64,000 bases of DNA from positions 62,001 through 126,000 of the forward strand of contig NZ_SMGK01000007.1 in the NCBI RefSeq assembly GCF_004339725.1. Direction: 5' to 3'. Positions 7,907-39,694 of this stretch are shown one piece after another; within the stretch, counting starts at the first letter, position 1; every line of letters begins with the position of its first letter. Under the pieces are notes generated by a model that did no database searches, was not told the DNA's origin, and saw only the letters and a program-made list of their open reading frames with translations. Both the position numbers and the translations under genes were made by a program. The stretch comes from Acidipila rosea (GTDB lineage Bacteria > Acidobacteriota > Terriglobia > Terriglobales > Acidobacteriaceae).

Positions 7907-7908
7907 AC

Positions 7909-23334: not shown

Positions 23335-25251
23335 ATGCCCGACTATATTTACCTTCTCGAGAACCGGCTTTCTCCCGCCCAGCGTAACGCATTACAACTT
23401 GTGCGTGACATCGCTCGGGACGCCTCGATGACCGTTTTCCTTGCCGGAGGAGCTGTCCGCGATCTGACAAGCGGCTCTTCGGTTCGCGATCTTGATTTCA
23501 CGGTTCAAGGAAACGCCCTCAAGCTATTGAAAAAGCTCGAGAAAAGTGGCGTTGTGTTGCTTGGAGAGCATGAGCCTTCAAGGAGTATGTCTCTCTGGTT
23601 TCCAGGCAGCGTACGAGTAGAGGTGTCAACTGCCCGGCGCGAAGAATATCCAAAGCCTGGCAAGCCGATTTATCACTGGGCGACTATTCACGAAGACCTG
23701 CGCCGGCGTGATTTCACAGCCAATGCGATGGCCCTCTCGCTGAATGAAAGCTCCTATGGCCTATTGCTCGATCCTTTAAACGGGGTCGCAGATATTGAGG
23801 CAAGGTTGTTGCGCCTCGCCAGCAACTATGGCTTCCTGGAGGATCCTTCGCGACTGGTTCGCGCATGGCGACTTCACCATAGGCTTGGGTGGGAACTGGA
23901 GGAGCGGACCCTCGTACGTTACCAGAACGCGAAGGAAGAGGGAGTCATCTCGGCAATTCCTCATTATCTGCTCGGAGTGGAGATTGAAGCCATTGCCCAC
24001 GAGGAAGATGCACTTGGCGCCTTGAAAGCTTTGGAAGCCGAGGGCTGGATGAAACATCTGGATCCTGCCTGGATCTCAGCTAAGGCAGACAGCACCGGAT
24101 TGGCGGCACTGCACCGCACACTTACGCAATTACAAATTCAAGGTGTGTATCCTGACCCATCGGCAGCACAGATGGAACTCCTGACGGCCAAGATGCAGCC
24201 CAAAGAGCTTGCAGGTCTGAAAAAGCTTTTCCCAAACCCCGGCTTCGTGGCGCAATGGGAGAGCCTGGAATCTGATGCGAAAGAGTTTGCCAGAGTGCTG
24301 AGTGGCAAGGATGCTGCCAGCCCCTCGGCTACATGGAAGCTGCTTACCTCCTATCAGGCTGAGCCAGTGTTGTGGCTTGCCTTTAGCAGCAAGTCGGCTC
24401 CGGTTCAGACTAAGTTCAATAACTTTTTCAATGTCTGGCCCGATGCAAAGCAGAGGGTTCCTCTCGCCCTGCTTCTGGAGATGAGAATCACGCCAGAATT
24501 GCCTGGCTATGATGACCTTCTGCAGGAAATCTTCTTTCACCTGATTGATGGGCAACTGCAGACGGAAGAAGAAATGCGCGCATTTCTTGAGCCATATTCG
24601 CCTCCTGCGCCGCCCGCACCCGTCAACGTACGGAAGACTCGCGGCCGTCGTGCTGAGCGCGTACGGATCGAAGAAGAGCTTGAGGAAGAGACAGATCTTC
24701 ATGAGGATGCGGAGTTGGCCGCTGAGAGCGAAGACGATATGGATGAAGAGCGGCCAGAAGCCGACGATGCGCCTCCTCCACCAAAGCCAGCTCTAAAGTC
24801 AGTGCTTCCTGGGGAAAAGACCACTGCGGATGGCGGCAAGAAAGCCTCATCTTCGACATCGAAGAAGGGATCTCTCCAGCCAGCCGGAATTGTAGAGGCA
24901 GCTACTTCGAAACAGAGTCAAGCTGCGCCAAAGCCAGCAGGCAAGGGGAAAGCTGCGAAAGCCGTTCCAGCTCCCAAAGAGGAGGCGAAGCCTAAGCAGG
25001 CTACGCCTGCCCAGTCCCAAAAGGTAGCCAAGTCTACGCCCGCGAAAGCGATACAAAAACAAGTCAAGCCCGTGCCGAAAAAAGTCGTTGCCGCGAAGCC
25101 GGCTCCAGCAAAGAAGCAGGCTGGCAAAGCAGTCCCGAAGAAAATTGCTTCTAAAGCTACCCCCAAGTCAGCTCCATCCAAAGCAGCAGCGAAGTCAAAG
25201 CCCGAGCCCAAGGCACATGGAAAGAAAGTGGCGGCGAAGAAGAAGCACTGA
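23335..25251 (+). CDS. tRNA nucleotidyltransferase/poly(A) polymerase with Lys-Ala-Pro tail
   Basis: 638 residues. The N-terminal class II nucleotidyltransferase domain (about 1-260) has LAGGAVRDL, the metal-binding RDLDF (DxD), RRRDFTANAMA and EDPSRLVRAWR, typical of CCA-adding enzymes and PcnB-type poly(A) polymerases. A helical region follows to about 420. Residues from about 425 are acidic first (EEELEEETDLHEDAE) and then become a long basic tail rich in KPAPAKK/AAKAVPK-type repeats, like histone H1 or other nucleic-acid-binding tails. Such a tail is not part of the usual enzyme of about 420-480 residues. CCA-adding versus poly(A) activity cannot be decided by eye; the tRNA-Glu gene next door encodes its own CCA. 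Confidence 0.8.
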   Translation: MPDYIYLLENRLSPAQRNALQLVRDIARDASMTVFLAGGAVRDLTSGSSVRDLDFTVQGNALKLLKKLEKSGVVLLGEHEPSRSMSLWFPGSVRVEVSTARREEYPKPGKPIYHWATIHEDLRRRDFTANAMALSLNESSYGLLLDPLNGVADIEARLLRLASNYGFLEDPSRLVRAWRLHHRLGWELEERTLVRYQNAKEEGVISAIPHYLLGVEIEAIAHEEDALGALKALEAEGWMKHLDPAWISAKADSTGLAALHRTLTQLQIQGVYPDPSAAQMELLTAKMQPKELAGLKKLFPNPGFVAQWESLESDAKEFARVLSGKDAASPSATWKLLTSYQAEPVLWLAFSSKSAPVQTKFNNFFNVWPDAKQRVPLALLLEMRITPELPGYDDLLQEIFFHLIDGQLQTEEEMRAFLEPYSPPAPPAPVNVRKTRGRRAERVRIEEELEEETDLHEDAELAAESEDDMDEERPEADDAPPPPKPALKSVLPGEKTTADGGKKASSSTSKKGSLQPAGIVEAATSKQSQAAPKPAGKGKAAKAVPAPKEEAKPKQATPAQSQKVAKSTPAKAIQKQVKPVPKKVVAAKPAPAKKQAGKAVPKKIASKATPKSAPSKAAAKSKPEPKAHGKKVAAKKKH

Positions 25252-26181: not shown

Positions 26182-27570
26182 CTAAGCCTTCGGAGCGGCG
26201 CTGAAGATTTCAATGAGCCGGTCGGCGATAACCTTATCTTCGCCTTCTTTGAGCTGCCAGACGGCAAAGCCAAAGGTCGTCGGATCGGCTAATTCGCTTT
26301 TACGGCTGGGGCGACGTTCAGCCGCAGGCTCATCCGGATTGCGTCCCCGCATACCACCCACGCCAGCGCCCATGCTCCCGATTCCCATCGGACGCGTGTC
26401 AGCGAGCTGTTGCATAACCTCCGGCCCGGTTATCCGCAGCTTGGACGGGTCGATATGCCAGCTATAGTAAGGGGTCACGTTCCCCAGTGCTTCCGGGTTA
26501 AACTGCCGCGGGAGCGCCGCCACTCCAAATTCCTTCACCGCATCCGTGATAACTTGTGCGCGCTCATCATACATCCGTAGAGTATCGGCGTAGTCCTGAT
26601 TGACGAAGATCTCTAGAGCTTTAAGAAGGCCGAAAATCGTCTCTTTGCCTACCTTGCAGCAGCGGCCGATTCGATCTTCCTGCGGGCTCATATTAAGCAA
26701 CGAATAACGGATAAGCTCTTCCTTGCCAATCAGGATGCCGGATGCCTGCGGTCCGCAGATATCCTTGCCACCGCTAAAGGTTACGAGGTCGAAGCCGATT
26801 TCAGGGTACTTCCAGAGCCGCTCGACTGGTGGCACATCTGCCGACGCATCGTTGAAGGTGTAGAGATTATGTGCCTTTGCGATAGCTACGGTTTCCGGAC
26901 CGCTAACCTTTCCTTTGTCCGACAGAATGTTCGTGAAGTGGATGGCTACCGTCCTAGGGTTGATAGCGGCAATCATCTCTTCGCGTGTCTCGACCTCTAC
27001 TAGCTTTGCGCCCGTCTGGCGAATCTGGTGATCAAACGGATATCGATGGCTTTTCTGGATGATCACTTCATTTCGGGGAAAATTGCTGACATCGGGAATA
27101 GCGCGCATGCGTGGCTCCAAGTCTTCCGTCATCATGCCCGCGTACCCAACCACCAATGCCGCAGCTGCGCCGCCCGTCACCAGACCAGTGTAGCCAACGG
27201 GGGATTTACATAGCTTGGCAATAAACTTTCCTGCGGCAATTTCCAGTTCATCGATCAAGACGAAGTGCTCATTGCCCCGCCGGATCAACTCCATAACCTC
27301 CGGCTTCATCACTGATCCACCCATGACGGTAATCGTGCCATTGATGTTGATGAGGGGCGTTATTCCAAGCTCGGCATAGATATCGCCGGTTGAGCCCAGG
27401 CCGGTTGTAATGGGTACGATCGGATTGCCATCGACAGAGGAAGCAGGCAACTTGGGCTTTTTGGCAAAGAGCCCCGAGGCGTTCAACCTGGCAGGGGCAA
27501 GCAGACTGCCGCTCGCAGCCCCTAGCGCAGATAGGAATGAGCGTCGGTTCCAGCCGGACTTCATGTTCAT
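26182..27570 (-). CDS. Tat-exported SelA-like PLP enzyme
   Basis: 462 residues. The N-terminus NRRSFLSALGAASG is a twin-arginine signal, so the folded holoenzyme should be exported. The mature part belongs to the SelA/DgaE-like branch of fold-type I PLP enzymes: LININGTITVMGGS at the start, TGLVTGGAAAALVVGYAGM phosphate loop (about 128-146), D241 (FNDASAD) and the Schiff-base K269 in FSGGKDICGPQAS. It is not true selenocysteine synthase: no selB, selC or selD is near and Tat export is incompatible with tRNA work. Cytoplasmic DgaE-like relatives eliminate ammonia or water from amino sugars or acids. It lies 29 bp after an exported RidA gene, its probable operon partner. Substrate unknown. Confidence 0.82.
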   Translation of the reverse strand: MNMKSGWNRRSFLSALGAASGSLLAPARLNASGLFAKKPKLPASSVDGNPIVPITTGLGSTGDIYAELGITPLININGTITVMGGSVMKPEVMELIRRGNEHFVLIDELEIAAGKFIAKLCKSPVGYTGLVTGGAAAALVVGYAGMMTEDLEPRMRAIPDVSNFPRNEVIIQKSHRYPFDHQIRQTGAKLVEVETREEMIAAINPRTVAIHFTNILSDKGKVSGPETVAIAKAHNLYTFNDASADVPPVERLWKYPEIGFDLVTFSGGKDICGPQASGILIGKEELIRYSLLNMSPQEDRIGRCCKVGKETIFGLLKALEIFVNQDYADTLRMYDERAQVITDAVKEFGVAALPRQFNPEALGNVTPYYSWHIDPSKLRITGPEVMQQLADTRPMGIGSMGAGVGGMRGRNPDEPAAERRPSRKSELADPTTFGFAVWQLKEGEDKVIADRLIEIFSAAPKA

Positions 27571-27599
27571 GCGTAACTCCTTGCAATATCTTTGACGAA

Positions 27600-28157
27600 C
27601 TATTCACCAACGGGCGACGGCGATTGAGCGACTACCCGGGCACTGCCGACGATTTCTATCAATGAGTCGCCGGGGATCCATTCAAGAGCCATGCAAGCGC
27701 GGGAAGGAGCCCGGCCCGGGCTGAAGTATGTCCCGTAGATCTTGTTAAGCGCGTCATACTGTACCTTGTGGGCATCGAACCTTGCCCTGCCGGTAGGCAT
27801 AGGGATGTTGTCTGCGAGAGGCAGGCAAAGAAAGACCTCCAGATGGATGATGCTGTCCATGGTGCAGCCTGCACTTTCAATTGACTTTTTAAGCGCCTCC
27901 ATGGTGCGGGTGACATGCTTCTCAAATGGATCAGTTACGAGCACATGATCCTCTTTGGAGTAGCCGTCATTCGAGCCTGTGCCAGAGAAGTAGTAGATGT
28001 CATTGTGTATATGTTTGTTACTGCTGGCGCGATGAGTTCTTTCTTGCATGGGTACACCAGCAGGAGCCTGCTGCGAGAATAGACGTGGGGCACCGGCTAT
28101 GGCAGCCGTCATTGCTGCTATTTTGCCAAAGAAACTCCGTCGAGTGTCTATCTGCAC
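27600..28157 (-). CDS. Tat-exported RidA-family protein
   Basis: 185 residues from a GTG start with GGAGGAG 7 nt upstream. The N-terminus has DTRRSFFGKIAAM, a twin-arginine signal, followed by a RidA/YjgF fold of about 135 residues. The strand RAPSRACMALEWIPGDSLIEI keeps the Arg that binds the carboxylate in active RidA proteins. RidA hydrolyses imine/enamine intermediates left by PLP enzymes to 2-keto acids. Lying directly upstream of an exported PLP enzyme, it probably processes that product outside the cytoplasm. RidA proteins are normally cytoplasmic, so export is notable. Function by context is inference. Confidence 0.8.
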   Translation of the reverse strand: MQIDTRRSFFGKIAAMTAAIAGAPRLFSQQAPAGVPMQERTHRASSNKHIHNDIYYFSGTGSNDGYSKEDHVLVTDPFEKHVTRTMEALKKSIESAGCTMDSIIHLEVFLCLPLADNIPMPTGRARFDAHKVQYDALNKIYGTYFSPGRAPSRACMALEWIPGDSLIEIVGSARVVAQSPSPVGE

Positions 28158-28426
28158 AAATGGTCTCCTCCACCTTCATCTGGCTCTTGCCCCACTATGT
28201 GGCTATGCTTTATCAACGTGGATGCTGAGGGCCTTCAGGTGTCGAACTGCTGAAATCGTACAACCTTATAGAGCGTTATACATGGCTTAGGTAGGCGAAG
28301 TTCAAGCACTGATCGCTAACGATGTGCGAATATTGGTCCCGATACCACAATGCGGACCTTGTACCCGTTAGTACGATTGTGAAAGACCATAGGTGCACGG
28401 GAAGAACGAGCGGTGCTTTATTTCGC

Positions 28427-28441
28427 CAGAACGTGGAAACG
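28427..28441 (+). promoter_or_regulatory. Candidate regulon motif, copy A
   Basis: CAGAACGTGGAAACG differs at one base from CAGAATGTGGAAACG at 39782-39796, upstream of the TonB receptor. The binding protein is unknown. Confidence 0.4.
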
Positions 28442-28556
28442 AGTCTTGAATCTGTCGTCATAGTGAGGGCAGGGTATTCGACAGCCAATCTCGCTGCGAT
28501 ATTCCATGCTCAAAAACATCCGACATACTGCACCTGGCCGATATTTCTTTAGCAGA

Positions 28557-28568
28557 ACTTTCCACATT
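28557..28568 (-). promoter_or_regulatory. Candidate regulon motif, copy B
   Basis: On the minus strand AATGTGGAAAGT shares its first ten bases with the site at 39785-39794. It lies about 100 bp before the glycosidase start. Confidence 0.35.
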
Positions 28569-28665
28569 AGAAGTGGGGCTTGTTATCGTGCTTGTCATGG
28601 AAGGTCGCCAGCTTTTAGGGATCCTCAACTGAAGCGACGCGGCATTTGAAGTTTGGAGGTTGTCA

Positions 28666-30852
28666 ATGAAAGTTGCACTCTATCTGCTGTTGCGCGCTAC
28701 ATTTCTCCTGTTCTTCTTTGCCTCATCTGTCGTCAATAGTTTCGCGTCTCCTCGCCAAAGCGCAAAAGCAGGTTTGAAGGATAAAGCAAGCTTGATTACG
28801 TTGCAGTCAAGTCTTGTCACCATCGAATACCACCAACAAACCGGAATGATGGATATTCTGTGGAGTGATGGTCATAAGCTTCTTGGCATTTCCAGTGGCG
28901 CACAACTATCGAATGGGTCGACTATTTCTACGACCATGTACCCTGCCCATACTCTCCTGCAGACGAATCAGGGAGTGGAGGGTAGCTCCGTCTCTGCAGC
29001 CTTAACTGGACGTGAGTACACCGTCCGCAGCACAGGGCCGGGACTTCCAGCCTTTCTGCAGCATATCTGGATTTATAACGACAAGCCCTTCATTGCGATT
29101 GAGGCTGAACTTGGTGCTGATGCGAGCGCAATCGGCACCAGGCACTTTGATGTGGTCGAGTTTCATGGCGCGAATGCAGTGCAGATTCACGCGGCCGCGA
29201 GACTACGACTTTTACACGTACCTTTCGACAACGACATGTGGTTCCGCTACATCAGTTGGCCGATTGCAGAGATGAAGACGGCGGGAAAGTATTCGAGCAG
29301 CGAAGTAACTGCAATTTACGATAATGTCAGCCGAGAAGGACTCATCCTGGGATCTATCACCCACGACACTTGGAAGACTGCAATCGATGCCCATGCCGCA
29401 AATGGTGAACTGGCGGACTTGGATGTATATGGGGGCATCTCATCTCCAACAGGCGTGCGTACGGACACGCATGACACGGTCCCGCATGGGATTGTGCATG
29501 GTTCAAGGGTTATTTCTCCCCGCATCTTTATCGGCTCCTATTCGGACTGGCGAAATGGTTTGGAAGCCTATGGTGCAGCAAATGCCGCCATCCGACCACC
29601 GCTGGTGTGGCCAGCGGGTGCGCCCGTGGGCTGGAATAGCTGGGCGGCGTATGCCGAAAAGATTAATTATGACCGCTACCTGGGATCAGCTGCATTCGTG
29701 CACAACTCGCTTGTGCCACAAGGATTTGGACGGAATAAGGTGGTCTACATCAACCTGGATGCTTTCTGGTCAAATCTTGACGCAGTGCAGCTCGCAGATG
29801 CGGTGAGAACCATTAAAGCAATGCATATATCCGATGGTACTCAGTTTGAGCCTGGAATCTATTGGACGCCTTTCGCCTATTGGTCTGACAATCTGGATGC
29901 TTGTGTCGAAGGCACCGGAATGAAGTATCGATATCGTGACATCATGCTCAAAGCGCCTGATGGAAGCTTTCTTCCCAAGGTCGACGGTGGGCGCCCGCTC
30001 GACCCGTCTTCGCCTGGGACGAAGGCGCGGACAATCTACTTCATCAAAGAGTTTCAGGCGCTGGGGTTCCAATATTTGAAGCTGGACTTTCTTTCGCACG
30101 GTGCTCTCGAAGGGGTCCATGCGGACCCGGCCATCCAGACTGGGATACAGGCTTTCAACGAGGGTATGCAACAGATTGTCGATGAGGCAGGGAATCGCAT
30201 GTTCTTGAGTCTCTCGATTGCACCACTCTTCCCCTCAGGTTACGGCCACGCGCGCCGCCTTTCGTGTGACACCAAAGGACACATGAGCGGTGGTGATCAG
30301 AGCACTGAGTACATGCTGAACTCACTCACTTATGGGTGGTGGACGGCTGGCTCTCTGTACATCGCTGACCCGGATCACGTTGTCCTCGGCGAGAAAGCTG
30401 ATCATGGAGCGCGAAGCGTAACAGAAGGGAAAAGTCGTCTGCTCTCAGCGATCATCAGTGGTGGCATGATCTTGGACAGCAGTCGCCTGGCAGATGATCC
30501 ACAGGGCAGGCAACTAGCTGCGCAGGTCTATAACGCTCGCGATCTCTTCCAGGTTGCCAATGAGCAAAAGGTATTTCGCCCAGTTGAAGGCGATACCGGT
30601 GATCGCGCCGCCTCGGCGTTTGTGCGGCCCTTCAAAGGAGGATTCTATCTGGCCCTTTTCAATTACGATGAACTGCAGCCTCAGACCATTACGGTGCCAC
30701 TCGCGCGTATTGATCCGGCGCTCGCAACTGCCACCGCAGTATCCGTGATCGAGGTTGAGACGGGTAGGAAGTTGCCGGAAGCGCATGGCACAGTCTCGAT
30801 ACAGCTTATGCCCGCGGAGTCGAAACTCGTCGCATTGCGTCGACAGCAATAG
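28666..30852 (+). CDS. Secreted clan GH-D glycosidase (GH27/GH36-like, melibiase type)
   Basis: 728 residues with an N-terminal signal peptide (hydrophobic to about FASSVVNSFAS, residue 29). The N-terminal half is beta-rich (about 40-300). A TIM barrel follows, with GWNSWAAY, VVYINLDAFW, and YLKLDFLSHG carrying the probable nucleophile Asp, then a C-terminal beta domain. These are features of the clan that contains alpha-galactosidases and also beta-L-arabinopyranosidases (GH27). With two GH127-type enzymes nearby, an L-arabinose or galactose linkage in a plant glycan is plausible. The start ATG at 28666 has GGAGG six bases upstream; an earlier in-frame TTG at 28660 is less likely. The family is fairly sure, the substrate is not. 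Confidence 0.75.
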   Translation: MKVALYLLLRATFLLFFFASSVVNSFASPRQSAKAGLKDKASLITLQSSLVTIEYHQQTGMMDILWSDGHKLLGISSGAQLSNGSTISTTMYPAHTLLQTNQGVEGSSVSAALTGREYTVRSTGPGLPAFLQHIWIYNDKPFIAIEAELGADASAIGTRHFDVVEFHGANAVQIHAAARLRLLHVPFDNDMWFRYISWPIAEMKTAGKYSSSEVTAIYDNVSREGLILGSITHDTWKTAIDAHAANGELADLDVYGGISSPTGVRTDTHDTVPHGIVHGSRVISPRIFIGSYSDWRNGLEAYGAANAAIRPPLVWPAGAPVGWNSWAAYAEKINYDRYLGSAAFVHNSLVPQGFGRNKVVYINLDAFWSNLDAVQLADAVRTIKAMHISDGTQFEPGIYWTPFAYWSDNLDACVEGTGMKYRYRDIMLKAPDGSFLPKVDGGRPLDPSSPGTKARTIYFIKEFQALGFQYLKLDFLSHGALEGVHADPAIQTGIQAFNEGMQQIVDEAGNRMFLSLSIAPLFPSGYGHARRLSCDTKGHMSGGDQSTEYMLNSLTYGWWTAGSLYIADPDHVVLGEKADHGARSVTEGKSRLLSAIISGGMILDSSRLADDPQGRQLAAQVYNARDLFQVANEQKVFRPVEGDTGDRAASAFVRPFKGGFYLALFNYDELQPQTITVPLARIDPALATATAVSVIEVETGRKLPEAHGTVSIQLMPAESKLVALRRQQ

Positions 30853-30901
30853 CTTCGATCCGGACATGCAGCAATACTTCGCATCGCTGAAAGGAGAACG
30901 C

Positions 30902-31834
30902 ATGTATAGAGTTATGTCGGCTCTACTGGTTTGCCTTGCGGCCGTCACGCCTGCCTTTTCGCAAGTAAAGACCACGAAGCAGCAAATCATGTTCTACACC
31001 TCAGGATGGAAGGGACCGCGTTTTCAGGACGGTCGTCCGAAGATCCCAGATGATCTACTCAAGCGCGCCCTGGACGTCTCCATCGAAGATGTGTGGGACT
31101 ACCTTCACGAACGCGGATACAAGTGCCAATTCGAAGCCGGTTGGCAGGCTCTCCATATTGCCAGGCCGTTTGCGGGCCGAGCCCTGACGTCTCAGTACAT
31201 GCCTATGCGGCCAGATATGGCTCAAGCTATCGCGATCGAAGGCAAAGCAGAGGGGCGCCTGGGCGATACCAATAGTTGGCCTATTAACGAATTACAGCCG
31301 GGAGATGTTTATGTTGCGGATGGTTTCGGAAAAATAGTTGAAGGCACACTGATTGGTTCTAACCTGGGTAGCGGAATCGCTGCACATACACGCGCAGGAT
31401 TTATCTTTGACGCCGGTATCCGCGACCAGGAGGAGAACCGGAAGATACCTGATTTGAATGGATTCTATCGGGGCTATGACCCTTCTGCCTGGGCTGACAT
31501 GATATTGACCTCTATCAACTCGCCGGTCCGCATTGGACGAGCGATTGTGTTGCCCGGAGATCTGGTTTTGGCGAAGACTGATGGGGTAATCTTTATCCCC
31601 GCAATTTTGGCTGAAGACGCGATCAGTTCAGCTGAGTTCACGAATCTTCAGGATGCCTTCAACTTTCAGTTGAACCGTGCTGGCGAGAACGGAGCTGAAT
31701 TTGAAGGTGGATGGACAGCCCGAAAGTATGACGCTTTCGCCAAGTGGATTGATGCTCACCCAGAGAAGTTGAAGATGCCGAAGGCTGAATTCGATACACT
31801 CCTTGCAAAGAAGCAACACGAGAAAGCAGACTGA
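30902..31834 (+). CDS. Secreted RraA-family protein (aldolase/decarboxylase-like)
   Basis: 310 residues from an ATG with AAGGAGAA upstream, 49 bp after the glycosidase, so co-transcribed. A Sec signal peptide ends near TPAFSQ (about residue 20). The RraA/HMG-aldolase fold (about 60-260) shows the substrate/metal loop GSNLGSGIAAHTRAGFIFDAGIRD, given here in two parts, with the conserved Arg-Asp, and PGDLVLAKTDGVIFIP. Enzymatic relatives cleave 4-hydroxy-4-methyl-2-oxoglutarate or decarboxylate oxaloacetate; the RNase E inhibitor RraA is a specialised cytoplasmic member and cannot be the role of an exported protein. Together with the exported PLP and RidA proteins it could act on a 2-keto acid outside the cytoplasm. 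Confidence 0.78.
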   Translation: MYRVMSALLVCLAAVTPAFSQVKTTKQQIMFYTSGWKGPRFQDGRPKIPDDLLKRALDVSIEDVWDYLHERGYKCQFEAGWQALHIARPFAGRALTSQYMPMRPDMAQAIAIEGKAEGRLGDTNSWPINELQPGDVYVADGFGKIVEGTLIGSNLGSGIAAHTRAGFIFDAGIRDQEENRKIPDLNGFYRGYDPSAWADMILTSINSPVRIGRAIVLPGDLVLAKTDGVIFIPAILAEDAISSAEFTNLQDAFNFQLNRAGENGAEFEGGWTARKYDAFAKWIDAHPEKLKMPKAEFDTLLAKKQHEKAD

Positions 31835-32014: not shown

Positions 32015-34096
32015 TCAGACTTCTGCGGCTGCAGCGGCAGGTATCCAGACTTGCATGGAAGTAGGCTCACGGTTGTTCCATGCGTAATAGGGAATCATTT
32101 TGAGTGATGTAGGAGCGCATCCCGCAGTCGTACGGTCCAGCTCCGGCTGGTAAAGACTATCTGGCTGAGCGGCAGGCATGAGCACCCCCGGATGAGAAAG
32201 AACAACAACACCATCGAGGAGTTGTGCGTCGTAGTGCATCTCAGTCGCCGGGGAAAGACGGGCAGCATATAGCGGGAACTGGGCAGGATCATGACCAGCA
32301 GGCTGATCCATCTGTTCCATGCAGTAAACAATGGGGCCCCGTTGCAGCGCGATGCGTCCTGTGTCATCTGCAACAGCCGGATTTGCATGGATCACCTGAG
32401 GCTCCATGTCAAATATCAGTTGAATCATGTCATTAGGCTTCCAGCGGCGCCGCAATGCAAGGTAATGCCCTGCTACCACACCTTCCACGGACGATCCATT
32501 TACTTTGACGCGGGAGTGCTTTGACCAGCCAGGGATTCTAACGAAGACTGTGAAGATCTCAGAAGCTTGCGGAGTCACTGTAATAGCTACCTCTCCGTCC
32601 CAGGGATACTCTGTCTTTTGCGTCAGACGCAGAGGTGTCCCGCTGGCAAGATGCCAGTTCATCTCGGAGTTGTCATAAAGGTGGACATAAACTCCCTCCT
32701 CAGATGTTCCATACATATAGCCAGGAAGGGAAGCAAGTGTCCTTTCCAGGTTGGGCGGACAGCATGTGGTGTCATACCAGGGATTTCGGATCTTGTCTCC
32801 TGTCGAGGAATCGTAAGCTAGCGGATTGCGATAGCAGTAGAGCTTTCCATTAAGGGACATGCCGGAGTTTATACCGTTGTAGAGGGCGCGCTCGATTACA
32901 TCCGTGTGTCGCGCATCTCCTGTGGCAGCGAGCATTCGCCAGTTCCACATCATGTTTCCGATGGCCGCGCAGCTTTCTCCATAAGCACGAGCATTCGGTA
33001 GCTCATAAGGATTGCCGAAGGATTCCCCTTCGCTGCGAGCGCCGACCCCGCCCGTGATGTACATCTGGTCTGTGATCAGATCGGTCCAGAGTGTATTGAG
33101 AGTGTGCAGATAAGCTGGATCGCCGGTTTCCAGATAGTAATCTGTGGCGCCACAGCAGGCGTACATGGCGCGAACGGCATGGCCTTCAAGTTTGGTACGC
33201 GAGGTAAACGGTATTCCACAGAACATGTAAACAATTTGGCTGGGTTTGAGCGGAATACGGCTGTCACCCTGCAAAATATAGCCCGCCAGATCAAGATATT
33301 TGCGATTGCCGGTAGTGCGATAGAGTTCGATCAGCGACATCTCGATTTCAGGATGGCCGGCAACAATGGGTTTCTGGTTTACGCCGGGTCCATAGTTAGG
33401 CAGTAAGAAGTTATCTACGAATCGTATGCCTGCATCAAGCAGGGTAGGGTCACCTGTAGCCCGGTAGTATGCGATAGATCCTTGAAGTAGATGCCCGATG
33501 TTGTAGAGTTCATGGCCGCGCTCCTGTGTGAGAGGAAGCATGCGCTCTGCAGCGCGATCGCCCACATAGTAAGTGTTCAGATAGCCGCTTGGCTCTTGCG
33601 CGGCAACTATCTCGCTGATCATTTTGGCAACTGTCTCACGCAAGGCAGGTTGGTCGCTACTTTGCAGGACGAAGCCTACTGCCTCCGTCCACTTATAGAT
33701 ATCCGAGTCGGAGTAAACGGGGCCTTGCTGCGGCTTGCTGGACTTGTCCTCAAGCCGAAGAAAGTTATCCATACGTCCATGCGCAAGGAGTTCGTCGTGC
33801 ATGCTGGGAATGCTGCTTTCAACGTTGGTTGTACGTCGCTTCGACCAGAAGCCATCTGTAATGACGACTGCGCGAATCGGCACAGTCTTCACCTTTGCAT
33901 GAGGAGAGTTAGAAAGATCAATAATTCCTTCGTCTCGCCACCGATTGGCAGACAGGCGCGCATCAGCGGCATAGGCTCCAGTCTGCACAGGTTGAGCGGC
34001 AAAGGAACTAGCGGGCATCAGCGCGGTAGCTGCGGTAACGCTGGCTGCCCGGGAGAGAAAGGTTCGGCGGCTCATCTTTGTGCGGATAGTTCTCAT
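32015..34096 (-). CDS. Tat-exported GH127 beta-L-arabinofuranosidase-like enzyme
   Basis: 693 residues. MSRRTFLSRAASVTAATALM is a twin-arginine signal (Met at residue 7 of the chosen start). The long helical barrel matches the GH127/DUF1680 family: Glu374 and Cys376 (GESC) and the pair Cys445-Cys446 (TTCCPPN) correspond to the zinc/catalytic cysteine centre of the characterised Bifidobacterium enzyme HypBA1, where Cys is the nucleophile. The start at 34096 follows AGGAGA; an earlier codon at 34120 is possible. Expected product is L-arabinose from beta-1,2-arabinofuranosides. It follows the second GH127-type gene by 105 bp and forms an operon with it. Confidence 0.88.
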   Translation of the reverse strand: MRTIRTKMSRRTFLSRAASVTAATALMPASSFAAQPVQTGAYAADARLSANRWRDEGIIDLSNSPHAKVKTVPIRAVVITDGFWSKRRTTNVESSIPSMHDELLAHGRMDNFLRLEDKSSKPQQGPVYSDSDIYKWTEAVGFVLQSSDQPALRETVAKMISEIVAAQEPSGYLNTYYVGDRAAERMLPLTQERGHELYNIGHLLQGSIAYYRATGDPTLLDAGIRFVDNFLLPNYGPGVNQKPIVAGHPEIEMSLIELYRTTGNRKYLDLAGYILQGDSRIPLKPSQIVYMFCGIPFTSRTKLEGHAVRAMYACCGATDYYLETGDPAYLHTLNTLWTDLITDQMYITGGVGARSEGESFGNPYELPNARAYGESCAAIGNMMWNWRMLAATGDARHTDVIERALYNGINSGMSLNGKLYCYRNPLAYDSSTGDKIRNPWYDTTCCPPNLERTLASLPGYMYGTSEEGVYVHLYDNSEMNWHLASGTPLRLTQKTEYPWDGEVAITVTPQASEIFTVFVRIPGWSKHSRVKVNGSSVEGVVAGHYLALRRRWKPNDMIQLIFDMEPQVIHANPAVADDTGRIALQRGPIVYCMEQMDQPAGHDPAQFPLYAARLSPATEMHYDAQLLDGVVVLSHPGVLMPAAQPDSLYQPELDRTTAGCAPTSLKMIPYYAWNNREPTSMQVWIPAAAAAEV

Positions 34097-34201
34097 GGCA
34101 TCTCCTGGGCGAGCAGGCACAACTAATGGCCGCCGCCCTCATTCCTTGGATTTATATCGCTCTGCATTCAGTCACTTGAGTTTCATTAAGCAGGAGAAGG
34201 A

Positions 34202-36046
34202 TCAGCTCTCCAACTCTTGATAGAGTCGATACTTTTCGTTCCGGATGGTAGGAAAGCTCACCATCCTAACCTCTTTGGAGGAAGAATTCACCCGCCATTC
34301 TTTCGACCCGTTTGAAATCTGTCGGGCCGACATCAATTGCTGGCGTGTGAAGCTTCCCGGTGTATCCCCGATTGCGAAGAGCGTTAGCGGGCCTTGCATC
34401 AATGCGACAACCCGGGGATGCTGTGGATCAACTGCCTCCAATTGAAGTGGCATATTTAAGGTTAGTTCTACTCGATCTCCATTTCTCCACTCCTGCTGGA
34501 GTGTGGCCCAGGTGCCCGGGATCAATTGCACATTAGAGCGCCGTCCATTGACCGCCACTGTGCTTCCAGGTCCTGCCCATGCAGGAATTCGAAGACGGAT
34601 TGCAAACTGTTCCGGGCGGTCCATTTTTACCTCTAAACTTGTCTCAGGAAGATAGGGATAGTTCGTCTGTTGTACGAGACTTACCCTTGCTCCACCCTGG
34701 CGCCATGTAACACGTGAAGGAACATAGAGGTTTACATAGACTCCATCCCCGTCGTGAAAGTAAGAACTGATGCCATAGTCGGCGGTGATCTGAGGAAAAG
34801 TACCCGAACAGCATGGCCACTTATCCGGGTGAAAGAACTTGGACCCGGAATTGTTGTAGTCCGAGTAATAGAAGCTATGGCCGTCAGGCTGAATGGGCCT
34901 GGCACCAAGAATCGTGTTATAGAGCACCTTCTCCATGCTGTCGCCATATCTGCTATCTCCGGTCGCCCGCATCAAATAGCGGGCAATCTTGAAGTGGCCA
35001 TAGGCGCCGCAGGGCGTCTCGAAGCTCGCATGCGTCTTGGTGAGGCTTGCTCCCAGATCCCCGCTGCCTGGCGCACGGAAGCTTTCGTCTGGGCCCCATC
35101 CACCGGTAGCAAAACTCTGTGTTGTGCGCACGAAATCGAAACCATTGTGTGCCGCTCGCAGGTACTTCTCGCTGCCCATTACTAACCAGGCTTGCGCAGC
35201 GGAGCTAAGCGCGTTGACATGGCTGTAGGCATGTTCACCTGGGAGTATATTCTGCCCCGCCGCAAGTGGATCGAAATACTTCTGGTCCTGCAGATAGCGA
35301 ATTGCGAGTTGTCGAAAGCGCGTTCCTGCCCCACGCTTATATGCCAGGAATAAATTCTCCGGCAGGGTATAGCTTTCATCCCAGGTGTAGGCAATGTTGG
35401 GATGTGGCCTCGCTGCCATTTCAGGACGTGTTAGGGCACGCTCCGGCAGGAAGGGCAGAACAGCGTCTGTCGCATGATTCAGTACATCAAGTGCATTCGT
35501 TGAGCCGGCAAACTGGTGAGCATCGATGAGTCCGCAGTTAGTCTTGTCAAAGGTATATGCCGGCAGGCAATACCCGACATAGAATTTCCTGCTAACTGTG
35601 GGAGCAAAACCTTCGACGAGCCTCTGTACCTTCTGCTGGGTTGGCTTGTCACCAGTGATTGCATAGGCGCGTGCCAGCCCTGAGAGGTATTGGCCGAAGC
35701 TATGTCCGGGTATATAGCCCGTCATATTATGGGGCGGGTCGAAAACCTTTGAATAGGAATACCAGCCACCCATGTCTTCGCCCGGAGCCGCAAGCCCGGC
35801 ACTCTGGCGAAAGGGTTTGAGGAGTGCATCCTCGCTCAGGTTCATGAAAAATGCATGATTGGTGTTGAACTGATCGAGCATTGGGCCGTCTAGCAATTGC
35901 ACGTCACTATAGGAGAACTGAGAAAGTTTTGTTCGGGGTGGTTGCGGCGCCTGCTGGCTGAAGAGGGGCCCCTGCCGCGAGACGGCTTGCAGTGCCGCCG
36001 CTGTGGCGCTCGCCTTGAGAAATGTTCTGCGTGAGAAATACGTCAT
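34202..36046 (-). CDS. Second Tat-exported GH127-superfamily (DUF1680) enzyme
   Basis: 614 residues. The signal FSRRTFLKAS fits the SRRxFLK Tat consensus exactly. The (alpha/alpha)6 barrel carries Glu343 and Cys346 (ETPC) and Cys412-Cys413 (WPCCSGTF). The Glu-Cys spacing is two residues rather than one as in the neighbouring GH127, so it is a different subgroup, perhaps closer to GH146, and its linkage specificity may differ. The start ATG at 36046 follows AGGAG; the frame upstream of it is open for 62 codons but shows no signal peptide. The two enzymes probably act on successive bonds of one glycan. Confidence 0.8.
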   Translation of the reverse strand: MTYFSRRTFLKASATAAALQAVSRQGPLFSQQAPQPPRTKLSQFSYSDVQLLDGPMLDQFNTNHAFFMNLSEDALLKPFRQSAGLAAPGEDMGGWYSYSKVFDPPHNMTGYIPGHSFGQYLSGLARAYAITGDKPTQQKVQRLVEGFAPTVSRKFYVGYCLPAYTFDKTNCGLIDAHQFAGSTNALDVLNHATDAVLPFLPERALTRPEMAARPHPNIAYTWDESYTLPENLFLAYKRGAGTRFRQLAIRYLQDQKYFDPLAAGQNILPGEHAYSHVNALSSAAQAWLVMGSEKYLRAAHNGFDFVRTTQSFATGGWGPDESFRAPGSGDLGASLTKTHASFETPCGAYGHFKIARYLMRATGDSRYGDSMEKVLYNTILGARPIQPDGHSFYYSDYNNSGSKFFHPDKWPCCSGTFPQITADYGISSYFHDGDGVYVNLYVPSRVTWRQGGARVSLVQQTNYPYLPETSLEVKMDRPEQFAIRLRIPAWAGPGSTVAVNGRRSNVQLIPGTWATLQQEWRNGDRVELTLNMPLQLEAVDPQHPRVVALMQGPLTLFAIGDTPGSFTRQQLMSARQISNGSKEWRVNSSSKEVRMVSFPTIRNEKYRLYQELES

Positions 36047-36190
36047 AACGCTCCTGCAATGTTGGACGGATGCAGCCGCCCGAGTGGGGTATTTACCGAC
36101 TGGAAGCAGGCGTCGATGGTGCTGCCTGTAAGAGGTGCTTCGCACGTACCTGGGTTCTGCCTTCGTAACTGTGTGGTGACGGCAAGATAG

Positions 36191-36205
36191 CTGAATGTGG
36201 CAACC
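36191..36205 (+). promoter_or_regulatory. Candidate regulon motif, weak copy C
   Basis: CTGAATGTGGCAACC matches the receptor-upstream site CAGAATGTGGAAACG at 12 of 15 bases, about 145 bp before the GH127 start. Confidence 0.3.
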
Positions 36206-36320
36206 AGATGTTGAGCAGACTTCGCCAAGCACGCAGAAGTGAGCGGCGAGACTGGTTCTACGTATTTGTCTTGATGATCCATTACCGAGTATTTGGATTC
36301 CGCTCTAGAAGCATCGTGAA

Positions 36321-36397: not shown

Positions 36398-39300
36398 TTA
36401 GAAGACCAAATTAGCTCCCAGTTGTATAAAGCGTGGTGGTAGTTGTCCGGTTGCCTTGCCGAAGTTAGAATCCGGTAGATTGGAATCCATGTTCGTCAGA
36501 TTCGGCCTGTTGAACAGGTTGTAGAACTCAAAGCGAAGTTGCATTGCCAGTCCCGCATGGAGAGTGGTGTTTTTCAAGAGGGCAGCGTCCCACTCCTGGA
36601 AATTGGGCTGACGGAAGCTGTTGAAGCTTTCGTTTCCTTCAGTGCCAAACGCAGGCTGTGGGAAGTTGCTCGGTGTAAAAACCCCATTCAGATATGCGTG
36701 GCGACTTGTGCCGTAATGATAGCTACTGACATTGGGGAAGTCATAGTTATCGCCGTCGGCATTATAGTCGCCGCTGCCCGGAGCATAACCTACATATTTG
36801 CCCGTACCATCTGTGAGTGGTTGGAAAGGTGCGTTTGTGTACACATTAAAGGGGTTTCCACTTTGAAGGATTGCGGTCCCGCTAATAACCCAACCACTTC
36901 CTACTCGGCCTACAAGCCCCAGTCCCTGATTGACATCGGGCACTTGATAGTTCCATGCAAGTGAGAAGCGGTTAGGGACATCCCAGTTGGAGGGCCCATA
37001 CCACTGATGTGGATTGATGTAGCTGGGATAAACCTGCGTATCATCTTTCGAGACAGAGTGAGTGTAGGACGCGTTAAAGAATGCGCGTGAGAATCTGCCC
37101 TGAAGTGAGAGGATCAGAGCATCGTAATTCGATACCCGGTCATTGCGTGTATATTGCACCTGGCCGAAGTTTGGGTTAAGACGTTGAGGAATCGGGCTGT
37201 TGTGAATGATTAAATCGCCCGGCAACTCATTAATGTCCTGTCCGTAACTTACGTTGAAAACCTGACCTCCGCCGGAGAGCAGATTTTGTCCGTTAGACCC
37301 TGTGTAGGCAATTCCGGCTACATAGTGTGAACCGATTTCGTGGTCTAGTTCAGCAGAATATGTGTATGTAACTGGGGACACCAGGTTCGGATCGATACCG
37401 CCAATTGTAAATTGCAGTCCTGTGATTCCGCCTGCAGCATTGAGTTGGCGTGCCGGGAGGGTTGGATAGGGAAAATTGTAGGGCTTGCTGTTGCTTGTTC
37501 CGAAGCCAAAAATTGGGGCGGGAGTCTGGCCGCCATAGAAAGTGGGGAAGATGTTTCCGGGAGGATTGCCTCGGAATTCTTCCTGAAGGTTGGCCAACGT
37601 CGGCCAGTTGTGGAAGATTCCTGCTCCACCTTTCACTACCCATTTGCCATCGCCGGACACGTCCCAGGCTACGCCGGCGCGCGGACTGAACACATCTGTA
37701 ATAGCTCGGTTGAGGGCGTGTGTATGGCGAACGACGATGCCATTCGCAATCTGCTGCTGCTCTGTCTGTCCGGGGCCGAAGAAGAAATTGCCAAATGCCG
37801 TACTGGCGCTGCGGGAGTACGGATTGCCATAATCATCCCACCTCAATCCGTAATTCACGTTCACACGCGAATTTACTTTCCAGTTGTCTTCGATGAATGC
37901 TCCACTTGTAGTTCCGGCGGCGTTCCAGCTGTACTGAGACTTCTGCCCGGTTAGAGGATCATAGGCTACATTTGTCTCCGTATAGACATTGTCAGTAGCA
38001 AGTGCCAGCAGATTATTGAATTGGAAGTTTGGTTGATCGTATGGGCCGTCAAAGACCTCTACATCGTCTGCAAACAGGCCTTCATATCCGACTCTGATGT
38101 CATGTGAGCCGATGACATGTGTAAGCACATCGCGCCAGTGGTAGTTGTGCTGAATAAAGTCGCCCTGTGCGAAGCCATCGCCAAATCCAGAACTGAGGCC
38201 TGTTACGTTAACCACGGGAACCGTGAAGAGTCCGGTGGCGGGCTGAATGCCTTCGACCCGCATGCCCGCGAAGGCTGCTTCGTTGATTGTATTCGGGCTG
38301 AAGGTATGTGTTTCGTTGACCTGCAGCGCATATTGATAAAAGTTATTGGTCGATAGGAATGCAGTGCGTGCGTTGGGGTTGTTATTGCTAAGTGTAGTTC
38401 GGTAGAAGGTGCCGTAGAGACGGTCTCTGCTGAAGTCCTTGTCGAGGCGAATACTGTATTGCATGCCATTGCGATAGGCGGTGTCAGAGTAATTTGCCGA
38501 GTCGATCATTGCAGTCGAGCACGGGAGGTTGAATGTTGATGCTGTTCCGCATATAGGTGAACCGCTGGTGTTGACAGGGTAGAGGCTCGCGGCTGTAGCG
38601 GCCACAGTCACATCCGCAACTTTACTGACGGGATAGCTGGTAAGAATCTTGGTGCCAACTGTGTCGGGAAAGGCCGTAGCAGCAAATTGCGTAAATGCCT
38701 GGTCTTCGAAGGTGATGCTTTCGGTCACAGCATTTGATGCTCGCAACGGCTCTATGGAGAAGAAGAAGAATCCCCAGTTGTGATGAGGAACAATTGGGCC
38801 CCCGATGGTTCCCGACATGTTATTGCTGTGAAACGGTGGATATTTGTGCGTGAATTCAGTTCCCGCCGTGAGCTGTTGGTTTGTGAAATAGTCGCTTATG
38901 TTTCCGTGATAGTGGTCTGTTCCCGACTTGGTCGTCATCGTCATCTGGACGGAGCTGGCGCGTCCATAGTCGACGCTGTAAGTGTTCGTCTGGATGCTGG
39001 TTTCCTGAATCGAGTCCGGATTAGGTGTGAGATTGAGAACACCTGGACGGATTGAGCTGGTGACATCAAGTCCGTCGATGATGTACATGTTGCCCACGGC
39101 GCCCTGGCCATTGGCACTTGCGTCTACCTGGGTTTCTGTTGAGTAATTGTCTCGCCCCGACCCAGGGCTGCCGTTCGATGTGATACCGGTGCCGGTAACA
39201 CCGGGCGCGAGCGTAACTAGAGAGACCATGCTGCGACCGGCTAGAGGCAAGGTCGAGAGTGTTTGCGTCGATAGCGTCTCCTGAATGCGGGTATCCGCTG

Positions 39301-39694
39301 TGTCGAGTACTGGAGATTGTGTCGTGACCTCTACTGTTTGCGCCTGGCTGCCGATGGATAACTTGACGGGAATGTCGAGGATCTGATTGGTCTGCAAAAT
39401 GACCGGAGTCACGGAGTTTGCGAAGCCCGCGGCGGATGCATTGAGATGATAGTTGCCCGGCGCAAGACTCACAAACCGATATAGGCCTGTGGCATCCGAG
39501 GTTGTGGACCGTTGTTCGCCTGTAGCATCGTTAGCGAGAGTCAGTTTGGCATTTGGAATAGAGGCGCCGCTGGGGTCCTGCACGGTGCCAGTGAGCGAGC
39601 CACTGAACTGTGCGAACGATGGCTGTGTCAATGCCAGACACAGAGCCATCAAAATGCCAAAGGTGTATGTGATTGATCTGATGTTGCCTCTCAT
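36398..39694 (-). CDS. TonB-dependent receptor with N-terminal CnaB-like domain
   Basis: 1098-residue outer-membrane receptor. The signal peptide ends near TQPSFAQ (about residue 29). A carboxypeptidase-regulatory/CnaB-like beta domain follows (GSLTGTVQDPSGASIPNAK, about 30-115), then a plug with MYIIDGLDVT, then a beta barrel to the C-terminal LGANLVF, ending in aromatic Phe. This architecture is characteristic of the oversized acidobacterial receptors and is SusC-like in use, but no SusD homologue is adjacent. The start at 39694 follows AAGGAGACTTG; 44 upstream in-frame codons lack a signal peptide. It sits upstream of the GH127 operon and probably imports the oligosaccharides released at the surface. 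Confidence 0.92.
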   Translation of the reverse strand: MRGNIRSITYTFGILMALCLALTQPSFAQFSGSLTGTVQDPSGASIPNAKLTLANDATGEQRSTTSDATGLYRFVSLAPGNYHLNASAAGFANSVTPVILQTNQILDIPVKLSIGSQAQTVEVTTQSPVLDTADTRIQETLSTQTLSTLPLAGRSMVSLVTLAPGVTGTGITSNGSPGSGRDNYSTETQVDASANGQGAVGNMYIIDGLDVTSSIRPGVLNLTPNPDSIQETSIQTNTYSVDYGRASSVQMTMTTKSGTDHYHGNISDYFTNQQLTAGTEFTHKYPPFHSNNMSGTIGGPIVPHHNWGFFFFSIEPLRASNAVTESITFEDQAFTQFAATAFPDTVGTKILTSYPVSKVADVTVAATAASLYPVNTSGSPICGTASTFNLPCSTAMIDSANYSDTAYRNGMQYSIRLDKDFSRDRLYGTFYRTTLSNNNPNARTAFLSTNNFYQYALQVNETHTFSPNTINEAAFAGMRVEGIQPATGLFTVPVVNVTGLSSGFGDGFAQGDFIQHNYHWRDVLTHVIGSHDIRVGYEGLFADDVEVFDGPYDQPNFQFNNLLALATDNVYTETNVAYDPLTGQKSQYSWNAAGTTSGAFIEDNWKVNSRVNVNYGLRWDDYGNPYSRSASTAFGNFFFGPGQTEQQQIANGIVVRHTHALNRAITDVFSPRAGVAWDVSGDGKWVVKGGAGIFHNWPTLANLQEEFRGNPPGNIFPTFYGGQTPAPIFGFGTSNSKPYNFPYPTLPARQLNAAGGITGLQFTIGGIDPNLVSPVTYTYSAELDHEIGSHYVAGIAYTGSNGQNLLSGGGQVFNVSYGQDINELPGDLIIHNSPIPQRLNPNFGQVQYTRNDRVSNYDALILSLQGRFSRAFFNASYTHSVSKDDTQVYPSYINPHQWYGPSNWDVPNRFSLAWNYQVPDVNQGLGLVGRVGSGWVISGTAILQSGNPFNVYTNAPFQPLTDGTGKYVGYAPGSGDYNADGDNYDFPNVSSYHYGTSRHAYLNGVFTPSNFPQPAFGTEGNESFNSFRQPNFQEWDAALLKNTTLHAGLAMQLRFEFYNLFNRPNLTNMDSNLPDSNFGKATGQLPPRFIQLGANLVF

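Follow-up and report, generated by a model that had tools for sequence, protein, structure and literature searches.

The window analyzed here, a 64,000-nucleotide stretch of the genome of the soil bacterium Acidipila rosea, contains two divergent gene units and their flanking genes (Table 1). The first unit comprises RidA and SelA1, which are co-directional with RidA upstream and a gap of 29 bp, forming one operon. In the second unit, on the strand opposite to SelA1-RidA, RraA lies 49 bp after the glycosidase ORF. The original prediction placed three exported enzyme families at this locus, and their ORFs, the Tat signals of SelA1 and RidA, and the Sec signal of RraA were confirmed. The signal peptides of the three proteins were called from motif, hydrophobicity, and conservation.

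Table 1. Features of the locus (positions in the window)
Feature	Position	Strand	Description
SelA1	26182-27570	(-)	462 aa, Tat-exported DgaE/SelA-like fold-type I PLP enzyme
RidA	27600-28157	(-)	Tat-exported, enamine/imine deaminase family, GTG start
Intergenic region	28158-28665	.	508 bp between the divergent RidA-SelA1 and glycosidase-RraA units
Glycosidase	28666-30852	(+)	Secreted, GH36-like (clan GH-D), flanking
RraA	30902-31834	(+)	Sec-exported RraA/HMG-aldolase family enzyme
GH127 enzyme	32015-34120	(-)	Tat, nearest the aceric acid hydrolase model
Second GH127-type enzyme	34202-36232	(-)	Tat, flanking
TonB-dependent outer-membrane receptor	36398-39826	(-)	Same family as the receptor at 6757-9999 of cluster L058

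The N-terminal sequence of SelA1, MNMKSGWNRRSFLSALGAASGSLLAP, contains the Tat motif. The twin arginine R9-R10 was invariant in 35 of 35 aligned SelA homologues, so the export of SelA1 is conserved and cannot be put down to a misplaced start site. The Schiff-base lysine K269 and the PLP aspartate D241 were also invariant in the family alignment. Together with K269, a match to Pfam SelA (30.8 bits, cut-off 22.8) and the fold of 7lc0, the closest structure (TM 0.86), place SelA1 in the SelA/DgaE-like fold-type I PLP superfamily. It scored 142 bits against the DgaE-family model TIGR01437, under the cut-off of 385, and 101.9 bits against the DgaE equivalog, far under the 600-bit cut-off. A selenocysteine synthase role was rejected, with 30.0 bits against TIGR00474 (cut-off 267.9). 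SelA1 is proposed to be an extracytoplasmic 2-amino-2-deoxy-aldonate ammonia-lyase. Its clade was sister to SelA of operons such as L212, L053, and L209 (44-sequence clade, support 1.0), and the A. rosea genome has only two DgaE-like genes.

The second-closest structure to SelA1 was Cap15 (8t7j; TM 0.85 by target, phmmer E 3e-17), an O2-dependent PLP enzyme. As O2 is available in the periplasm of an aerobe, SelA1 might instead be an O2-dependent PLP oxidase/decarboxylase like Cap15, with RidA merely guarding against reactive by-products. We regard this as quite improbable, since 7lc0 is closer in both sequence (phmmer E 2e-23) and structure, the KdgK and Eda genes beside the sister-clade genes point to a 2-keto-3-deoxy acid, which an oxidation would not yield, and RidA coupling is typical of eliminations.

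The GTG start of RidA has a good Shine-Dalgarno sequence and is followed by a Tat N-terminus (MQIDTRRSFFGKIAAMTAAIAG). The PF01042 domain (45.5 bits, cut-off 27.3) and the invariant catalytic R153, which we take to correspond to Arg105 in E. coli, assign the protein to the RidA/YjgF superfamily, and the catalytic E168 was likewise present and invariant in the family alignment. The window RidA has diverged, carries an insertion around residues 111-129, and missed the cut-off of the subfamily model TIGR00004 (36.5 bits, cut-off 106.25). Among the five RidA genes of the genome, only the two adjoining DgaE-like genes carry Tat signals. Of 21 other SelA1 loci, 14 had a RidA orthologue immediately upstream of the gene, and in the remaining seven no orthologous RidA adjoined the SelA1 orthologue.

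Although the RraA ORF opens at 30755, translation likely starts from the ATG at 30902, which has the Shine-Dalgarno stretch GAAAGGAG ahead of it and gives the Sec signal MYRVMSALLVCLAAVTPAFSQ. The match to PF03737 (57.9 bits, cut-off 24.5) and the invariant catalytic pair R174-D175 in the family alignment indicate membership in the RraA-like/HMG aldolase superfamily. The LigK aldolase model TIGR02798 was missed (47.3 bits, cut-off 304.5), and regulation of RNase E was rejected with 19.1 bits against NF006875 (cut-off 136). RraA is possibly a 2-keto-3-deoxy acid aldolase or dehydratase/decarboxylase. With K269/D241 of SelA1, R153/E168 of RidA, and R174-D175 of RraA intact, none of the three active sites is degenerate.

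The original prediction also drew the flanking enzymes into the route, with GH127 enzymes releasing L-arabinose and hydroxyproline or other hydroxy-amino acids supplied from arabinosylated plant glycoproteins by these enzymes and the glycosidase. The genes are indeed flanked by GH127 and GH36-like enzymes, but neither was linked to SelA1 in other genomes and no hydroxyproline genes were seen, so that we consider this source hardly plausible; a part of these enzymes in the route is unsupported. The glycosidase was present in 9 of 396 genomes of the phylum and absent from all other SelA1-bearing genomes examined, and a single conserved glycosidase-RraA-SelA module was rejected because the glycosidase is rare and unlinked elsewhere. 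Although it was described as a secreted glycosidase, it showed only a weak resemblance to GH36 α-galactosidases in the PDB (E 2e-4), no family was matched in the Pfam or PHROGs searches, and the nearest structures to its poor AF2 model (pLDDT 58.7), GH36 galactosaminidases, serve only as a lead. The release of L-arabinose is not established because the best model for the GH127 enzyme at 32015-34120 was an aceric acid hydrolase, with a score under the cut-off. No GH127 homologue was found in the neighborhoods of SelA orthologues in other genomes. The TonB-dependent receptor is possibly the importer for the neighboring glycan locus.

The three families also recur elsewhere. Among 22 related genomes, 23 of 48 RraA genes had a DgaE-like gene no more than 6.5 kb away, with 0.38 expected, an association far beyond chance. 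When all RraA subtypes were counted, 21 of the 22 genomes had RraA beside a DgaE-like gene, and 10 of 22 SelA1 genes had a further DgaE-like gene at a distance of up to 21 kb. The A. rosea genome itself has a paralogous cluster (L058) with all three exported families, containing Eda (186 against TIGR01182, cut-off 156), a KDG-kinase-like PfkB, IclR, RraA, MFS, TonB, SelA, Tat-RidA, and a deacetylase (422 against NF006689, cut-off 371). The deacetylase is of the cog3964 type, and its family is related to dihydroorotase/hydantoinase-type amidohydrolases. The window locus has no deacetylase, MFS, KdgK, or Eda gene; in A. rosea these are encoded on a different contig.

The conserved cluster comprises lactonase, BBE oxidase, MFS, TonB, RraA, SelA-A, RidA, SelA-B, and deacetylase, with RidA, RraA, and deacetylase all present in 17 of 18 loci. 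The sister-clade operons L212, L053, and L209 are of the RraA-IclR-PQQ-RidA-SelA-MFS-KdgK-Eda type, and a KDG kinase accompanies the deaminase gene in L058 and in these three operons, outside the window. Similar sets of exported SelA, RidA, and deacetylase were found in Bacteroidota, where 2-keto-3-deoxygalactonokinase and KDPG aldolase adjoin SelA and the deacetylase in one locus (L249). The Tat and Sec signals were conserved across the clusters, and GH20, GH92, GH29, GH35, and GH3 enzymes were encoded beside SelA1 orthologues. The original prediction would fall if the three genes did not co-occur in other genomes, and it clearly withstood this check.

Membership of the window RraA in the SelA1-RidA route is uncertain because just two of the 19 genes of its subtype adjoined a DgaE-like gene, which rules out a linkage to SelA as tight as that of its paralogues. 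SelA1 and RidA may be the sole unit, with the window RraA brought next to them by rearrangement and belonging to the glycosidase unit or to another route based on sugar-acid dehydratases, and we give this explanation a considerable chance, although clearly below even. It agrees with the 17 cases unlinked to SelA, with the position of RraA 49 bp from the glycosidase on the same strand, and with window-type RraA genes flanked by Tat-exported dehydratases of the UxuA type and an MFS transporter (L186) or located beside a Tat-exported enolase-superfamily enzyme (L201). It is harder to reconcile with L034, which retains an 82% RraA orthologue by SelA1 in the presence of another RidA, with L123 of a distant family, in which an RraA of the window subtype (44%) is grouped with SelA, RidA, and deacetylase, and with the RraA of any subtype beside a DgaE-like gene in nearly every related genome. 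The A. rosea genome has only two RraA genes, each about 5 kb or less from a DgaE-like gene.

The gene neighborhoods suggest that exported enzymes strip nitrogen from oxidized amino sugars outside the cytoplasm, and SelA1 and RidA probably form one enzymatic unit working there on an amino sugar acid. We infer the substrate and every reaction from the families and their neighbors. The likeliest substrate is a 2-amino-2-deoxy sugar acid because the sister-clade operons hold RraA, PQQ dehydrogenase, RidA, MFS, KdgK, and Eda, and the product is most likely KDG or another 2-keto-3-deoxy acid. The original prediction had offered an amino sugar or a hydroxy-amino acid; the former is favored because the cluster-associated genes encode sugar oxidases, lactonases, deacetylase, KDG or 2-keto-3-deoxygalactonate kinase, and KDPG aldolase, whereas hydroxyproline and 3-hydroxy-amino acids are unsupported.

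SelA1 would cross the membrane folded and with PLP bound via Tat. Its substrate, from which it would eliminate ammonia, would be a 2-amino-2-deoxy sugar acid without a phosphate group, either D-glucosaminate or one of its stereoisomers. The exported RidA would then hydrolyze or tautomerize the released enamine/imine, so that a 2-keto-3-deoxy aldonate (for example, KDG) is formed. In the paralogous cluster, the substrate would be made by sugar C1 oxidation, lactone hydrolysis, and the cog3964-type deacetylase, and the product may be imported by the MFS carrier and passed to KDG kinase and KDPG aldolase. The same 2-keto-3-deoxy acid is probably also the substrate of the exported RraA, which would split it as an aldolase or dehydrate/decarboxylate it. 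Should KDG be imported and phosphorylated, an RraA aldolase in the periplasm would be in competition with that use, which counts against the scheme. The predicted sequence of PLP lyase, enamine/imine, RidA, and 2-keto acid fits the neighboring genes, but its RraA step is doubtful at this locus.

A different substrate would be N-acyl D-serine/D-threonine-type hydroxy-amino acids, degraded by the exported deacetylase and SelA-like enzymes, with RidA acting on the enamine and RraA decarboxylating or cleaving a small keto acid. The amidohydrolase kinship of the deacetylase and the LigK-type aldolase/oxaloacetate decarboxylase among the relatives of RraA would suit such a route, and in the ong pathway, OngC accepts D-serine and D-threonine for deamination as well (PMC9537276). 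However, sugar oxidases, lactonases, PQQ dehydrogenases, and KdgK/DgoK/Eda recur without an evident amino acid role, and the glycoside hydrolases beside SelA1 orthologues also speak against it, making this route unlikely. For the amino sugar reading in its full form, Acidobacteriota and Bacteroidota would share an oxidative, phosphorylation-free extracytoplasmic pathway comprising oxidation at C1, hydrolysis of the lactone, deacetylation, PLP-dependent elimination of ammonia assisted by a dedicated exported RidA, and cleavage of the 2-keto-3-deoxy acid by RraA, with the ammonia freed outside the cytoplasm. It would have an origin separate from that of the cytoplasmic ong pathway, the deacetylases and PLP enzymes of the two routes being non-homologous, and we put this complete reading somewhat below an even chance.

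Outside the cytoplasm and without phosphorylation, the SelA1 route would be the counterpart of DgaE and of the cytoplasmic ong pathway. DgaE (7lc0) is the closest fold and sequence match, and the same elimination is proposed for SelA1, but DgaE is cytoplasmic and acts on a phosphorylated substrate after PTS uptake, whereas SelA1 is exported, probably uses an unphosphorylated substrate, and is far under the DgaE equivalog cut-off. The amidohydrolase and PLP enzyme pair of the EF_0837/EF_0838/EF_0839-type clusters (TIGR03583, TIGR01437; structure 2ics), which encode an amidohydrolase, a SelA-related enzyme, and an aldolase, recurs here. The EF-type proteins are cytoplasmic, while here the pair is exported and RidA and RraA are added.

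In the ong pathway of Pseudoalteromonas prydzensis ACAM 620, GlcNAc1A is converted via GlcN1A to KDG, with an essential RidA of unexplained role (PMC9537276). Both systems have TonB receptors, a deacetylase, a PLP deaminase yielding a 2-keto-3-deoxy acid without prior phosphorylation, RidA, and KDG kinase, and a RidA gene accompanied the PLP deaminase gene in the window and in 14 of 21 orthologous loci. However, OngB, OngC, and KdgK are cytoplasmic (PMC9537276), while the key enzymes here carry Tat or Sec signals. OngC is of fold-type III and OngB is D-aminoacylase-like, whereas SelA1 is a fold-type I DgaE/SelA-like enzyme (nearest 7lc0, SelA) and the deacetylase here is cog3964-like, with RraA added. 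FlDet of Flavobacterium, an RraA-family KDGR dehydratase/decarboxylase acting on 2-keto-3-deoxy-D-glucarate, also uses a 2-keto-3-deoxy sugar acid, but its substrate is an aldarate from alginate, without a PLP lyase link (PMC8563752). The Natrarchaeobius chitinase clusters, with a DgaE-like enzyme, a RutC-family protein, and glucose dehydrogenase, offer a similar amino-sugar context for DgaE-like and RidA-family genes, but they are archaeal, and their authors propose a phosphorylated intermediate and take RutC as a repressor (PMC12343721). The view that no equivalent had been described must be qualified, since the cytoplasmic ong pathway performs equivalent deacetylation and deamination (PMC9537276). 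A literature search covering the exported combination, cog3964, and EF_0837 found nothing on such a combination.

PLP enzymes and RidA are known from textbooks as proteins of the cytoplasm, and the deamination of amino sugar acids is described so far only inside cells, by unrelated enzymes. If our reading is true, an exported PLP-lyase/RidA pair conserved in at least two phyla would place PLP catabolic chemistry and reactive enamines outside the cytoplasm, with cofactor loading of the exported enzyme achieved via Tat. It would provide a testable function for many exported proteins of soil bacteria annotated as "SelA-like" or "RidA family" and a possible role for the RidA of the ong pathway, and would constitute a candidate route by which soil bacteria gain carbon and nitrogen from amino sugars with kinase-free first steps.

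All three genes, which encode the DgaE/SelA-like PLP enzyme SelA1, its operon partner RidA, and a member of the RraA/HMG-aldolase family, were found intact in the window. SelA1 and RidA form one transcription unit with a gap of 29 bp, and RraA lies on the opposite strand, 49 bp downstream of the ORF of a secreted glycosidase. Twin-arginine motifs were present at the N-termini of SelA1 (WNRRSFL) and RidA (TRRSFFG), and RraA starts with a Sec-type signal, with signal peptides called by motif, hydrophobicity, and conservation only. Both SelA twin arginines were invariant in an alignment of 35 homologs, as were D241 and K269, the lysine that forms the Schiff base. The catalytic residues of RidA, Arg R153 and Glu E168, were kept in 16/16 aligned sequences, and the Arg-Asp pair R174-D175 of RraA in 14/14. 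The predicted export and the active sites are thus traits conserved across homologs, and the exported gene cluster of the original prediction was confirmed. The AF2 model of SelA1 was confident (pLDDT 84.6), and the profile score of the protein did not reach the curated cut-off for DgaE.

Positions of the three genes in the window and their family assignments
Gene	Position	Strand	Family evidence
SelA1	26182-27570	minus	Pfam SelA above cut-off
RidA	27600-28157	minus	Pfam Ribonuc_L-PSP above cut-off
RraA	30902 (likely start ATG) to 31834	plus	Pfam RraA-like above cut-off

Among 22 related genomes with a SelA1 ortholog, 23 of the 48 RraA genes had a DgaE-like gene within 6.5 kb, compared with a random-placement expectation of 0.38, and an orthologous RidA was directly upstream of the SelA1 ortholog (66-83% identity) in 14 of 21 fetched loci. 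Therefore, the co-occurrence in other genomes on which the proposal of an extracytoplasmic PLP lyase-RidA-RraA pathway had been staked holds. SelA1 is adjoined by a different RidA in L034 and by a partial match in L046. Acidipila rosea itself has exactly two DgaE-like and exactly two RraA-family genes, and each of the latter has a DgaE-like gene at a distance of about 5 kb or less. Tat signals are limited to two of its five RidA proteins, both adjoining DgaE-like genes, with none on the other three.

Inspection of 20-kb neighborhoods revealed that the system also exists in a second and more extensive form. At L058 in A. rosea (contig C3), the KDPG aldolase Eda, a PfkB kinase resembling the KDG kinase KdgK, and an IclR regulator lie on one strand, and RraA, an MFS transporter, a TonB receptor, SelA, Tat-RidA, a deacetylase, and a TonB receptor follow in that order on the other. 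The Eda homolog exceeded the curated TIGR01182 cut-off (186 vs 156), and the deacetylase was the only gene of the genome above that of NF006689 (422 vs 371); the models nearest to the kinase were KDG/KDGal kinases, with scores below the equivalog cut-offs. The Terriglobales consensus cluster comprises a 7-bladed lactonase, a BBE-type FAD oxidase, MFS, TonB receptor, RraA, SelA-A (about 430 aa), RidA, SelA-B (about 540 aa), and the deacetylase, with RidA, RraA, and the deacetylase each found within 8 kb at 17 of 18 loci. Another DgaE-like gene lies within 21 kb of SelA1 in 10 of 22 genomes, and in L045, L047, L049, and L052 SelA1-RidA sits inside the consensus cluster, adjoining a second deacetylase and 7-bladed lactonases. 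SelA-B is a tandem second SelA-like enzyme, whose paralogs (e.g., L059 10104-11717, L061 10727-12355) have a C-terminal extension of ~100 residues conserved across families. The structures nearest to the cluster deacetylase were 2ogj and 2ics, whose amidohydrolase group includes acetyl-(R)-mandelate/N-acetyl-D-acid hydrolases, a possible lead to its function.

SelA, RidA, and the deacetylase, sometimes with RraA, also occur together in distant acidobacterial families (L107-L109, L123-L126). A scan of named genomes yielded 80 best loci, spread over Acidobacteriota, Bacteroidota (Dyadobacter, Spirosoma, Larkinella, Niastella, and others), Balneolaceae, and one Planctomycetota MAG; 78 had a Tat-type motif on SelA, and, with many contigs being short, RidA was within 8 kb in 37 and the deacetylase in 33. 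Niastella has a row of RidA-SelA-deacetylase-RraA-transporter, and the genes next to SelA and the deacetylase in L249 (Chitinophagaceae) encode a KDPG aldolase and a 2-keto-3-deoxygalactonokinase (PF05035, 205 bits). An acidobacterial-type SelA locus was also seen in a MAG titled 'Arcobacter sp.' (L219, DYJN01000011.1), which is probably mislabeled or contaminated. In Dyadobacter and Spirosoma, a glucose/sorbosone-dehydrogenase-type protein with a cytochrome c domain lies between the deacetylase and RidA; an exported fusion of the same two domains is encoded at 41807-43624 of the window, and a Tat-exported FAD-linked sugar-lactone oxidase (ALO family) at 45578-46990. Two further window genes were noted by eye: an unusual fusion of a HAD-type hydrolase domain and a HerA/DUF87-looking P-loop ATPase domain (39881-41743), and a tRNA nucleotidyltransferase/poly(A) polymerase-like gene with a long Lys/Ala/Pro-rich low-complexity tail (23335-25251).

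The window RraA is of another subtype (about 310 aa, ~20% identity to the consensus-cluster RraA), a lower-scoring class in which 2 of 19 genes, those of the window and of G073 (L034), lie near a DgaE-like gene. At L186 (genome G051, 5495-10261), a window-type RraA and an MFS carrier are flanked on either side by a Tat-exported member of the D-mannonate dehydratase family (PF03786), whose known reaction yields KDG, a set that may form an exported sugar-acid dehydratase route to KDG. A relative at L201 has a Tat-exported enzyme of the enolase superfamily on one side and a GH127 on the other. Because of these neighbors, the substrate of the window RraA is likely a 2-keto-3-deoxy acid; whether it serves SelA1 at this locus is uncertain. 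RraA-family enzymes can take 2-keto-3-deoxy sugar acids, judging by FlDet, which converts 2-keto-3-deoxy-D-glucarate to alpha-ketoglutaric semialdehyde (PMC8563752). Homologs of the window glycosidase were rare (9/396 genomes), none was found together with SelA1 outside the window genome, and no GH127 linkage to SelA1 was found in other genomes. The original interpretation was partly right: the exported, linked enzymes stood, and the glycosidase and GH127, unlinked to SelA1 elsewhere, were treated as neighbors rather than parts of the route. The top structural match of the GH36-like enzyme at 28666-30852, from a low-confidence model, was a Flavonifractor alpha-galactosaminidase, a lead only toward galactosamine glycans.

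In a tree of 199 SelA homologs, the SelA1 clade was nested with support 1.0 in a 44-sequence clade, other members of which lie in operons such as RraA-IclR-PQQ dehydrogenase-RidA-SelA-MFS with KdgK-Eda nearby (L212, L053), RidA-SelA-MFS-KdgK-Eda (L209), and RraA-RidA-SelA-MFS (L211). Because 2-keto-3-deoxy-sugar-acid kinases and aldolases as well as sugar oxidases and lactonases adjoin, the gene neighborhoods point to a 2-keto-3-deoxy aldonate as the product of SelA1 and a 2-amino-2-deoxy aldonate as its substrate; KdgK suggests gluco and the 2-keto-3-deoxygalactonate kinase DgoK galacto stereochemistry. We infer every reaction of the resulting scheme, in which an aldose amino sugar would be oxidized at C1, the lactone opened, and the N-acyl group removed, whereupon SelA1 would eliminate ammonia in a PLP-dependent step and RidA would hydrolyze or tautomerize the released enamine/imine. 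Import through the MFS carrier would then lead to phosphorylation of the keto acid; alternatively, RraA would process it. Genes for deacetylation and uptake are located elsewhere in the A. rosea genome, outside the window, and Tat export would suit a folded, PLP-loaded enzyme.

Of the systems described so far, the one nearest to the predicted exported SelA-RidA set, and sharing its logic, is the cytoplasmic ong pathway for oxidized N-acetylglucosamine (GlcNAc1A) in Pseudoalteromonas, in which OngB deacetylates GlcNAc1A, the PLP enzyme OngC deaminates the product to KDG, KdgK phosphorylates it, and the RidA protein OngD is essential, with its role unknown (PMC9537276). However, OngC is a fold-type III and OngB a D-aminoacylase-like enzyme, both predicted to be cytoplasmic, whereas the present set uses fold-type I PLP and cog3964-like enzymes predicted to be exported. 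No account of an exported version was found in the literature searched, which mostly lacked subscription journals. A further hint comes from archaea, in which a chitinase cluster contains genes for a DgaE-like enzyme, a RutC-family protein, and a glucose dehydrogenase (PMC12343721). GH20, GH92, GH29, GH35, GH3, and GH39 enzymes adjoin SelA1 orthologs, GH20 lies directly downstream of SelA1-RidA in L033, and the window encodes an exported GH20-family protein (51590-53656); these glycoside hydrolases would loosely fit N-acetylhexosamine-containing glycans.
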